DNA of 64,000 nt from Elusimicrobiota bacterium (GTDB taxonomy: Bacteria > Elusimicrobiota > Elusimicrobia > UBA1565 > UBA9628): NCBI GenBank assembly GCA_026388095.1, contig JAPLKL010000028.1:1-64000 (forward strand). The letters are read 5' to 3'. The notes under the pieces were generated by a model. That model did no database searches. It saw only the letters and a program-made list of their open reading frames with translations, and was not told the DNA's origin. Both the position numbers and the translations under genes were made by a program. Position 1 is the stretch's first letter, and each line of letters begins with the position of its first letter. Positions 18,215 to 57,899 of this stretch are shown in pieces.

Positions 18215-21051
<2,837 letters not shown>

Positions 21052-34405: not shown

Positions 34406-34434
34406 TTGACAACAATATAGGGGGGGGCTACACT
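34406..34434 (+). promoter_or_regulatory. Consensus sigma-70 promoter of the TPR/kinase pair
   Basis: TTGACA (34406-34411), 17-base spacer, TACACT (34429-34434). The ATG at 34443 is 8 bases beyond the -10, so transcription should begin within a base or two of the start codon, giving an essentially leaderless mRNA. A G-run (34420-34427) sits in the spacer. Confidence 0.7.
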
Positions 34435-41344: not shown

Positions 41345-41373
41345 TTGACAGGGAATGGGCCGGGAGCTATACT
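41345..41373 (+). promoter_or_regulatory. Consensus promoter with no downstream gene
   Basis: TTGACA (41345-41350), 17-base spacer, TATACT (41368-41373): the best sigma-70 match seen in the window. On the plus strand no coding frame follows before the opposed gene ending at 41476, so it probably drives the small RNA described next. Confidence 0.7.
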
Positions 41374-41379
41374 GCAAAT

Positions 41380-41470
41380 TAGGAAGCCCTGAGGGGCGAC
41401 CTGCAGAAGACTCCGGGCGGCGCCGCCGCCGGATTGAGCCAAATCCCCGAAAAGGGGATTTGGCTTTCTC
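41380..41470 (+). ncRNA. Candidate small RNA of about 90 nt
   Basis: Between the consensus promoter (41345-41373) and a 12-bp terminator hairpin (41437-41465, then TTTCTC) lies about 90 bases of non-coding sequence. It can fold into GCCC/GGGC with loop TGAG (41386-41397), a GC-rich stem (41413-41432, one bulge, loop GCC) and the terminator. No match to 6S, SRP, tmRNA, RNase P or a known riboswitch was recognised. The boundaries are predictions from promoter and terminator only. Confidence 0.5.
41437..41468. terminator. Terminator hairpin between convergent units
   Basis: AGCCAAATCCCC (41437-41448) pairs fully with GGGGATTTGGCT (41454-41465), loop GAAAA. TTTCTC follows on plus. It ends the candidate small RNA and may also serve the minus-strand gene ending at 41476. 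Confidence 0.8.
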
Positions 41471-41475
41471 ATGCG

Positions 41476-42609
41476 CTAAGCGCGCTCCGGGTCGTCCGGC
41501 TGGCGTAGGAACATCCACCAGATGGCGAGATTGAAGAGGTGGGTGCCGAAGGCCGCGGACCATAGGAACCAGTGGAGCTTCCTGACGACGGTCAGGACGA
41601 CGATGAGGTAGACGTAGTCGCGGCTGGCCACGCGCTCGAAGAAGATCTGGGTCGGTCCGAGCTTTCTCCGGGGCCGGCGCAGGATGAGCCACCAGATCGT
41701 GAACATGCTGGCGGCCATCCCCGAGACCATCAGGATCCCGGGCAGCAGGACTCGGGCCTGGGGGTCGGTACTGCGCACGGCGAAGGGGATGGCGAGGAAG
41801 ATGGCCAGATGCGCGATGTGGTCCGCGCCGAGGTCGTAGTCGGCGCCCGACTGGCTGCACAGCAGTTTGAGCCGCGCGATCTCCCCGTCGCAGCCGTCGA
41901 GGATGCAGCAGAACCAGAGCAGGAAAACCCCCAGGACCTGGAGAGGATAGGAGCCGAAGGCGAGCCAAGCCGCGCCCAGCAGGCCCAGCAGCAGGCTCGC
42001 GGTGGTGACGGCGTTGGGGGTGGCGGGGGTGCGCAGCAGCAGCCGGGAGAGGCCCACGGACATGCGGCGGTCGAAGCGGGCCACGAAGCCGTCCGTGTCC
42101 TTCACCAGGCCGTCGAACAGCGCCCGCTCCGCGCGCGGGATCGCATCCGCGTCCTGCAAAGAGATCCAGTCTCCCTCGCCGGCCTCGAAATCGCGGCCGC
42201 CGGCGCAGGAGCCCGCGGCGTAGGAGTCGGGAGATGGGTGATAGCTGGCCAAGACCTCGCCTCGCCGCACCCAGCGCGCGGGGCGGCCCTCGGCCCGGGC
42301 TTGGCTCAGGAAGCGCCCCAAAGAGCCGTCGAGCGGGAGCCCGTCGGCGGCGACCGCCAGCAGGGGGACTCCGGCGGCGAGCCGGGCCGCGACCTCGCCC
42401 GAGGGAGCGCACTCCACGCGCGCGGCGCCCAGCCCCGCTATCTGCCGGCCCCAGCGCCGCGCGAAGTCCGGGTCCGCGTCCAGCAGGATGATGTTCTCGG
42501 GGGAGAGGTACTCGGCGATGCGCTGGGCGGAGCGCAGCACGGCGGGGATGGATGCAATGCAGGGGAGGTCCCGGGCGGGGCCGAGCACGACTTGGATACG
42601 GTCTGGCAT
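41476..42609 (-). CDS. CDP-alcohol phosphatidyltransferase-type membrane enzyme with N-terminal nucleotidyltransferase-like domain
   Basis: 377 residues from ATG 42609. The C-terminal half has 5-6 helices and the complete CDP-OH-P signature DG-x2-DG-x2-AR-x8-G-x3-D-x3-D-like element, seen as DGCDGEIARL then GADYDLGADH. The N-terminal ~180 residues (PCIASIPAVLRSAQRIAEYL, IILLDADPDF, VPLLAVAADGLPLD, GDWISLQDADAIPRAERALF) look like a reduced sugar-nucleotidyltransferase domain, as in bifunctional enzymes that make and use CDP-inositol. Loss of the GxGxR loop suggests the domain may be inactive. The product is likely an unusual polar lipid or phosphodiester. Confidence 0.8.
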   Translation of the reverse strand: MPDRIQVVLGPARDLPCIASIPAVLRSAQRIAEYLSPENIILLDADPDFARRWGRQIAGLGAARVECAPSGEVAARLAAGVPLLAVAADGLPLDGSLGRFLSQARAEGRPARWVRRGEVLASYHPSPDSYAAGSCAGGRDFEAGEGDWISLQDADAIPRAERALFDGLVKDTDGFVARFDRRMSVGLSRLLLRTPATPNAVTTASLLLGLLGAAWLAFGSYPLQVLGVFLLWFCCILDGCDGEIARLKLLCSQSGADYDLGADHIAHLAIFLAIPFAVRSTDPQARVLLPGILMVSGMAASMFTIWWLILRRPRRKLGPTQIFFERVASRDYVYLIVVLTVVRKLHWFLWSAAFGTHLFNLAIWWMFLRQPDDPERA

Positions 42610-57200: not shown

Positions 57201-57817
57201 GCCAGACCTTCTCGGACGCGCGGGAGCACTTCCGCAGGCTCTACGGCGTGCTCTTCGAGGGGGGCGAGGCCGACCTGGTCCTGACCAACCCGGAGGACAT
57301 CCTGGAGACCGGCGTGGAGATCGTGGCCCAGCCGCCGGGCAAGCGCCTGCAGAGCATCTCCCTGCTCTCGGGCGGCGAGAAGACCATGACCGCCATCGCG
57401 CTGCTCTTCGCCTTCTTCATGGTGCGGCCGTCGCCCTTCTGCATGCTCGACGAGGCCGACGCGGCCCTCGACGACGCCAACATCGAGCGCTTCACCAACA
57501 TGATCAAGGAGTTCGGCGCGCGCACCCAGTTCCTGATCATCAGCCACAACAAGCGCACCATGGAGGCCGCCGACACGATCTACGGCGTGACCATGGAGGA
57601 GAAGGGCGTCAGCCAGATCGTCTCCATCGAGTTCCAGAAGCGCGCCGGCACGCATGCCCCGGCCCAGCCTCCGGCACAGAAGCCCGAGCCGGCCCCGGCC
57701 GCACCGCCGGCCGCGGTCGCCGCGGTGCAAGAGAACCTGCCCATGGGAGAACCCGCGCAGAGCCAGCCGCAGACCGAACCCCCTGGGACGACCGACGAGC
57801 AGCCTCCGCAGGGCTGA
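54206..57817 (+). CDS. smc: Chromosome segregation protein SMC
   Basis: 1,203 residues. The N-terminal ATPase half has GYKSFA and the Walker A GPNGCGKSN (32-40). Long coiled coils (about 165-500 and 670-1000) flank a hinge (about 510-665, GGQNPYWMGAQTVLNAGIDG, VDEAWRPYVEDLLG). The C-terminal half has signature LLSGGEKTMTAIALLFAFF and Walker B FCMLDEADAALDDANIERF. A Pro/Ala/Gln-rich tail of about 50 residues (1148-1203) is an extra. No scpA or scpB is adjacent. Confidence 0.96.
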   Translation: MYLKSIDVVGYKSFAIKTHLDFAPGITGIVGPNGCGKSNIMESVRWCLGEMSYKSLRADAMIEVIFSGTERRPPLSMTEVTLTFDNTSSQLATQYSEVTVTRRIYRSGESAYFLNRTQCRLRDIREMFLDTGVGGEGYAIIDQGGVEFILRAKPEERRALFEEAAGVSKYKAKREEALRKLERVEVDMSRLQDSLSLIDEQVKNLDAAARKAKLYKKYEEELVGLEAAKTLADLAGIEAGLSDCAAKAGPAQEKLDGRKAAVSGEEAEVARLELEKAAHQGQLSDIGAKIAAVRAEMGRLEERCRASDETIAGVESRRVDCAREMESARQRLSGMDPQIAKAGAEVDRVRAALETAQKELDGWQTQVDACAVALAEAEAAAGERRRQAMAGADAAVDAARAVSVREADGGRQVSDFSSFMRSLQRDLEIESRAAGEFEALRVEAQEQAGRAAAARGAATAAQAALAALRQRQAELSTDVLRLHSDLSGTRARAEALEAQGGQNPYWMGAQTVLNAGIDGVVGSVRSLIKVDEAWRPYVEDLLGERLFAVVCENSQAARAGIGLLQASGSGRARFLVLSTLSGGPGERAYPEQAQPLLRHIQYDPRHEAAVRFLFAESYALDKALFGDHWVCGGAAPGPGAQLSLSDIEDLRAGVAALEAQSSERRSESARCGEEAAEAETRLHVALSAVSVETEREASLGRRLKEKEESLGLDQQNVLLGMDQATGCLRGISLIKEELIGLRIRQTDAEALAKSCREAEAEAAAKAQSAKDALVQKATGADVLKTRIEGFNTEMSIHANTFEHLAESKKHLEANVAERNQELETLARKRAEAVAAKDQARQQIQLHQAELGGQENAAAAVNERLQSADKALHSRAQALHGLKAELDTAQKEMHELEIQRSGLQTRQEMLRTQLWDQRQLTVEEAKAKFGAVVVDLEKIETLRKRISGMGPINLAAPEEYEALAQRQSFLNAQLGDLTQAKDDLKAAIQKINATTRENFRQTFSDAREHFRRLYGVLFEGGEADLVLTNPEDILETGVEIVAQPPGKRLQSISLLSGGEKTMTAIALLFAFFMVRPSPFCMLDEADAALDDANIERFTNMIKEFGARTQFLIISHNKRTMEAADTIYGVTMEEKGVSQIVSIEFQKRAGTHAPAQPPAQKPEPAPAAPPAAVAAVQENLPMGEPAQSQPQTEPPGTTDEQPPQG

Positions 57818-57833
57818 CCGCCGTCCCCTCGAA

Positions 57834-57899
57834 CTCCGCGCCGAAGGCGCGGAGTCCAGCGGCCCCCCTTGAGGGGGGCCGCTGTTCCGTTGGGGGGTG
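57834..57899 (-). repeat. Double-hairpin repeat element, copy B (likely terminator)
   Basis: Read on the minus strand: arm CACCCCCCAACGGAAC (57899 to 57884), a 12-bp stem (57857-57868 with 57873-57884, loop TTGA on plus), then a 9-bp stem (57834-57842 with 57846-57854). Arm, stem core and order match copy A at 7246-7313. It follows smc and probably terminates it. Confidence 0.75.

Follow-up and report, generated by a model that had tools for sequence, protein, structure and literature searches.

A predicted structured small RNA gene conserved within one order of Elusimicrobiota

In the stretch of Elusimicrobiota DNA analysed here (64,000 nucleotides; the window), a near-consensus promoter faces no gene, which raises the question of what is transcribed from it. 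The initial annotation proposed a small RNA lying between this orphan promoter and a terminator, and the proposal is supported by conservation of the whole unit and by covariation. On the strength of these comparisons, we consider it very probable that a structured small RNA is encoded here as a free-standing gene (Table 1). Our preferred explanation couples this gene to an action in trans that would be independent of Hfq and would depend on recognition of the RNA fold. As a single explanation, we assign it a probability of about 0.6.

Promoter, fold and terminator

The sequence TTGACA-17-TATACT (41345-41373, plus strand) matches the sigma-70 consensus at 11 of 12 positions and is the sole site of this quality in the window, which bears out its description as the best promoter there. 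Only one further site scoring at least 10/12 is present in the 64 kb, at 34406, where it precedes an ORF. When the window was dinucleotide-shuffled 20 times, sites scoring at least 10/12 numbered 0.55 on average, and no site reached 11/12. Across the 4.6 Mb of the home genome, the pattern CTTGACR-N17-TATANT occurs at 10 sites, which include both copies of the RNA identified in this genome and otherwise mostly lie ahead of protein-coding frames; a reversed control of the pattern gave 0 sites. The promoter begins 17 nt past the stop codon (41328) of a 245-amino acid ORF without a Pfam match. The next gene in the window, encoding a CDP-alcohol phosphatidyltransferase, is convergent, with its stop codon ending at 41476, and no same-strand gene follows downstream, so that the promoter is indeed without a target gene.

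The predicted RNA has a length of about 88-92 nt and comprises three hairpins, with a minimum free energy of -51.2 kcal/mol compared to a mean of -33.8 kcal/mol for shuffled sequences (z = -5.2; 0 of 200 shuffles). Two of these, P1 and P2, correspond to the additional hairpins noted earlier between promoter and terminator. They are joined by a linker with the consensus A-A-n-n-A-A-G-A-C-U-C-C, of which the final nucleotides extend into P2. The terminator hairpin starts approximately 63 nt 3' of the -10 box. Its stem, formed by 41436-41448 with 41454-41466, contains 12 Watson-Crick pairs and one G-U pair and is followed by TTTCTC, in agreement with the 12-bp stem described initially. This T-tract is short and imperfect, and a simple terminator scan did not list the window terminator because T makes up fewer than 5 of 8 positions; the tract is better in most orthologues. 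Inspection of the aligned copies revealed no conserved start codon or reading frame, so that a coding function is unsupported.

Table 1. Positions of the predicted RNA gene, its parts and related features. Positions without a prefix refer to the window.
Feature	Position	Strand	Basis or remark
Whole small RNA gene	41345..41470	+	One of two copies in the home genome
-35 box, TTGACA	41345..41350	+	TTGAC matched at the corresponding place in 17/17 copies
-10 box, TATACT	41368..41373	+	Spacer 17 nt; G-rich stretch immediately 5'
Inferred transcription start, A at 41378 or A at 41381	41378..41381	+	Inferred from distance to -10 box
Hairpin P1, AGG-AA-GCCC-UGAG-GGGC-GA-CCU, symmetric internal loop	41380..41403	+	Folding, covariation
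Linker, A/G-rich, predicted single-stranded (GCAGAAGA region), followed by conserved CUCC of P2	41404..41411	+	Alignment
Hairpin P2, UCC-(bulged purine)-GGCGGC, 3-nt loop, GCCGCC-GGA	41412..41433	+	Folding, covariation
Intrinsic terminator, GAGCCAAAUCCCC-GAAAA-GGGGAUUUGGCUU + UCUC	41436..41470	+	Folding, covariation
Second RNA copy (L002, L026, L047)	G000:C49:20207-20330		2 nt short of the end of a convergent rubrerythrin-like gene
Coiled-coil-like protein	L059:5091-5825
Coiled-coil-like protein	L054:5161-5889	Reverse complement
Coiled-coil-like protein	L055:1354-2046	Reverse complement
Coiled-coil-like protein	L058:2282-2962

Distribution and covariation

Searching the home genome at the DNA level identified a second copy, located on a different contig, which has the same three hairpins and a promoter of its own. 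In P1, linker and promoter, this copy is nearer to the single copy of species G003 than to the window copy. A BLAST match on contig C17 of the same genome (E = 3.6e-4) lies inside a probable coding sequence, has neither promoter nor terminator, and was rejected as a chance match. Among relatives, the DNA search detected one copy each in five of the genus's six other species and one copy in a different family; this first search missed most of the divergent members. A covariance model constructed from the seven genus copies (R1) recovered members in two families of the order other than that of the window. A second model (R2), run on 341 Elusimicrobiota genomes, placed the RNA in 16 of them, all from the order of the window and belonging to three families. 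The total is 17 copies from 16 species, one per genome and two in the home genome.

Model scores below approximately 35 bits were not counted as evidence, given a misleading match of 32 bits (E = 3.5e-5) at window positions 57811-57886. This region holds two GC-rich hairpins at the 3' end of an smc-like gene, the second of them terminator-like. Only the additional presence of promoter and P1 led us to accept the members from G035 (39 bits) and G045 (42 bits). The models also match the minus strand at each copy; these matches represent the palindromic terminator in reverse reading and were excluded from copy counts. There was no credible member in other genera of the window's family, where those weak matches that were inspected had no promoter, and no copy was detected in the genus species G004. 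These absences may reflect loss, divergence beyond recognition or an assembly gap.

Promoter, P1, linker, P2 and terminator are kept in all 17 copies. The -35 hexamer is TTGACA in nine copies, TTGACG in six and another sequence in two, and it is followed, after a spacer of 17 nt in 16 copies and 16 nt in one, by a -10-like hexamer, with overall consensus scores of 8-11 of 12. Usually, GG[T/C]C lies just 5' of TTGAC, and a G-rich stretch lies ahead of the -10 box. The distance from TTGAC to P1 matches across copies, except that TTGAC is further upstream in G036, its P1 being longer.

Covariation was quantified in a 15-sequence alignment with 28 base pairs (A6) which, as also A5, was fitted to the model and is biased towards its structure. 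In this alignment, 95.0% of cells are paired compared to 81.4% in shuffles, compensatory double changes are found in 15 of the 28 pairs compared to 7.6 in shuffles, and the covariation score is 0.383, as opposed to 0.128 after shuffling and 0.04-0.08 for slid structures. Slid versions of the structure all drop to 39-58% paired; this control accounts for relatedness of the sequences, which the shuffle ignores. Double compensatory changes affect five pairs of P1 (90-92% of cells paired), of which the closing pair is A-U, U-A, G-C or G-U, and four pairs of P2, in which C-G is exchanged for G-C and U-A. In the lower terminator stem, six pairs show double changes and 99% of cells are paired, with GCC/GGC replaced by AGA/TCT, AGG/CCT or GGG/CCC and pairing kept. 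A MAFFT alignment that was not fitted to the model recovered P2 and the terminator independently, and single-sequence folding gave the P1 hairpin in nearly all copies.

Conservation thus extends beyond the terminator to the whole unit, which covaries in three families. Selection on promoter, fold and terminator of a transcription unit is well supported by these sequence comparisons, and the conserved promoter and terminator suggest that the RNA is expressed.

The upper terminator stem is conserved at the level of its sequence. The motif AAATCCCC...GGGGATTT is found in the 4.6-Mb home genome exclusively at the two copies, and AAAUCCCC/GGGGAUUU (window 41441-41461) is invariant in 14 of 15 aligned members, whereas the lower stem covaries freely. 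Substitutions in the upper stem are present solely in genera g13 and g14 (AAAGGCCC, AAAGCCCC, AAAAGCCC).

Possible modes of action and genomic context

Promoter, fold and terminator are conserved amid unrelated surroundings, which argues for a free-standing RNA gene. RNA polymerase would start at the near-consensus housekeeping promoter and stop at the intrinsic terminator. The transcript would fold into P1 (two short helices about an internal loop), the A/G-rich linker, P2 and the terminator hairpin. The resulting stable RNA would most likely act in trans without Hfq, with its fold recognised, probably by a hypothetical protein partner, for which the putative contact would be the exposed linker together with the CUCC/GGA element. 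Recognition through the fold, probably by a protein, is the mechanism that we favour, with some reservation. It is favoured over a fixed antisense seed because the fold persists although much of the sequence differs between copies, conservation of the linker is only partial and no Hfq was detected. The home genome gave no match to PF17209 (Hfq), whereas controls were detected; this result was obtained in a 97.6%-complete assembly and does not exclude another chaperone.

A trans-acting antisense RNA, of which the linker AGAAGACUCC pairs with mRNAs by complementarity to GGAG-type ribosome-binding sites, is a possible but distinctly less probable explanation. An own promoter, a single-stranded stretch and a terminator make up the architecture of many bacterial small RNAs, and the 3' half of the linker, AGACUCC, is fairly conserved and among the better kept unpaired or weakly paired parts, so that it would equally fit a base-pairing seed. 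However, CUCC, the most conserved candidate seed, is sequestered in nearly all copies by pairing at the base of P2, the linker varies in its first half even inside the genus, and the absence of a detectable Hfq in the home genome also speaks against this explanation.

Alternatively, the unit could be an attenuator or riboswitch, a cis-acting leader with a terminator that controls a downstream gene. Riboswitches likewise combine a structured domain with a terminator, and in G002, as in several of the copies from other genera, a same-strand ORF begins approximately 12-107 nt past the terminator. Yet a convergent gene comes next, at a distance of 0-50 nt, in at least five copies (window, second copy, G005, G006 and G045), and the downstream genes elsewhere, namely for a secreted coiled-coil protein, a GGDEF protein, a WD40 protein and a DNA polymerase IV-like ORF, have unrelated functions. 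An unsystematic look at the sequences also gave no alternative antiterminator helix. A riboswitch or leader is very unlikely because the downstream genes vary in kind and orientation, and we exclude it for the genus of the window, where neighbours converge.

We regard it as highly improbable that the unit is a small mobile repeat carrying promoter and terminator by chance. Inside the genus, it does reside in differing neighbourhoods, with archease/rubrerythrin-like, tRNA-Met, cold-shock protein, aldehyde dehydrogenase-like/amino acid permease and ThiF-like genes nearby (neighbours without a Pfam run were named by eye); the upstream flank of the window is shared with G006 only (73.6% over 261 nt), and the home genome has two copies. 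Against mobility, all other genomes carry a single copy, three genomes of family f3 hold the RNA divergent from the same ribonucleotide reductase gene, no conserved terminal repeats were seen apart from the terminator palindrome, and viral contigs had no match to the one pattern tried. A mere bidirectional terminator of converging genes with a chance promoter, suggested by the hairpin lying 9 nt from the convergent gene's stop codon, is refuted by conservation of the whole unit, the identical arrangement of promoter, hairpins and terminator at unrelated loci, the lack of a T-tract after the stem on the minus strand, and the restriction of the terminator motif to the two RNA copies in the home genome.

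The preferred reading, a free-standing RNA recognised through its fold, can be compared with known families. The Rfam search that had been proposed identified no family reaching its gathering score in Rfam 15, and nothing above chance beneath it. The top sub-threshold matches, RF01772 rnk_pseudo (18.7 bits, gathering score 55) and RF01757 sbcD (15.6 bits, gathering score 40), both with E about 0.5, arise through the combination of a GC-rich hairpin and a terminator and were rejected as chance. The RNA family is new in that it is absent from Rfam 15, and its architecture is of a familiar type. Spot 42, OxyS and similar regulatory RNAs are about 90-110 nt long, intergenic, and have their own sigma-70 promoter and an intrinsic terminator. 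The RNA described here is alike in size, intergenic site, own promoter, several hairpins and 3' terminator, but differs in that it has no sequence or Rfam relation to these RNAs and belongs to a genome in which Hfq was undetected.

Similar to 6S RNA and CsrB/RsmZ, it is a structured RNA that would be recognised by its fold and not by an antisense seed. By contrast, 6S RNA forms a long hairpin with a central bubble where there are three separate hairpins here, and the home genome has no Rfam match to 6S RNA (RF00013). The GGA-in-loop pattern of CsrB/RsmZ is absent, as judged by inspection of the hairpin loops, and CsrA was detected in none of nine scanned genomes that carry the RNA. Among all 12 genomes scanned for CsrA (home genome and 11 relatives), it was present in G007 only, which is itself without a detected RNA copy. 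A more far-reaching possibility, which we consider improbable, is a lineage-specific global regulator of the order that acts in an undescribed manner, for example by binding RNA polymerase or the ribosome in organisms that showed no sign of 6S RNA, Hfq or CsrA.

We found no report of small RNAs or RNA motifs for this phylum in the open-licence literature, and two papers on non-coding RNA discovery make no mention of it. Our results add a well-supported structured RNA family, absent from Rfam 15, to a phylum of which most members are uncultured. From the alignment and the covariance model follow predictions of transcript ends and base pairs that are testable in existing metatranscriptomes. The case also suggests that reading raw sequence for a promoter plus a terminator is able to reveal a genuine RNA gene.

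Elsewhere in the window, ARAGORN called a 96-nt tRNA-His with anticodon ATG at 19701-19796, which is likely a false positive by its odd length and anticodon. A link between the RNA and the coiled-coil protein encoded downstream of it in two families was considered and dropped, because elsewhere the two lie 1 to 27 kb apart or on different contigs. The proteins concerned (Table 1) are secreted, charged and coiled-coil-like and form a family that has no Pfam match. Of 56 genomes of the order, 16 encode a member, and in two families the gene often lies near the RNA.
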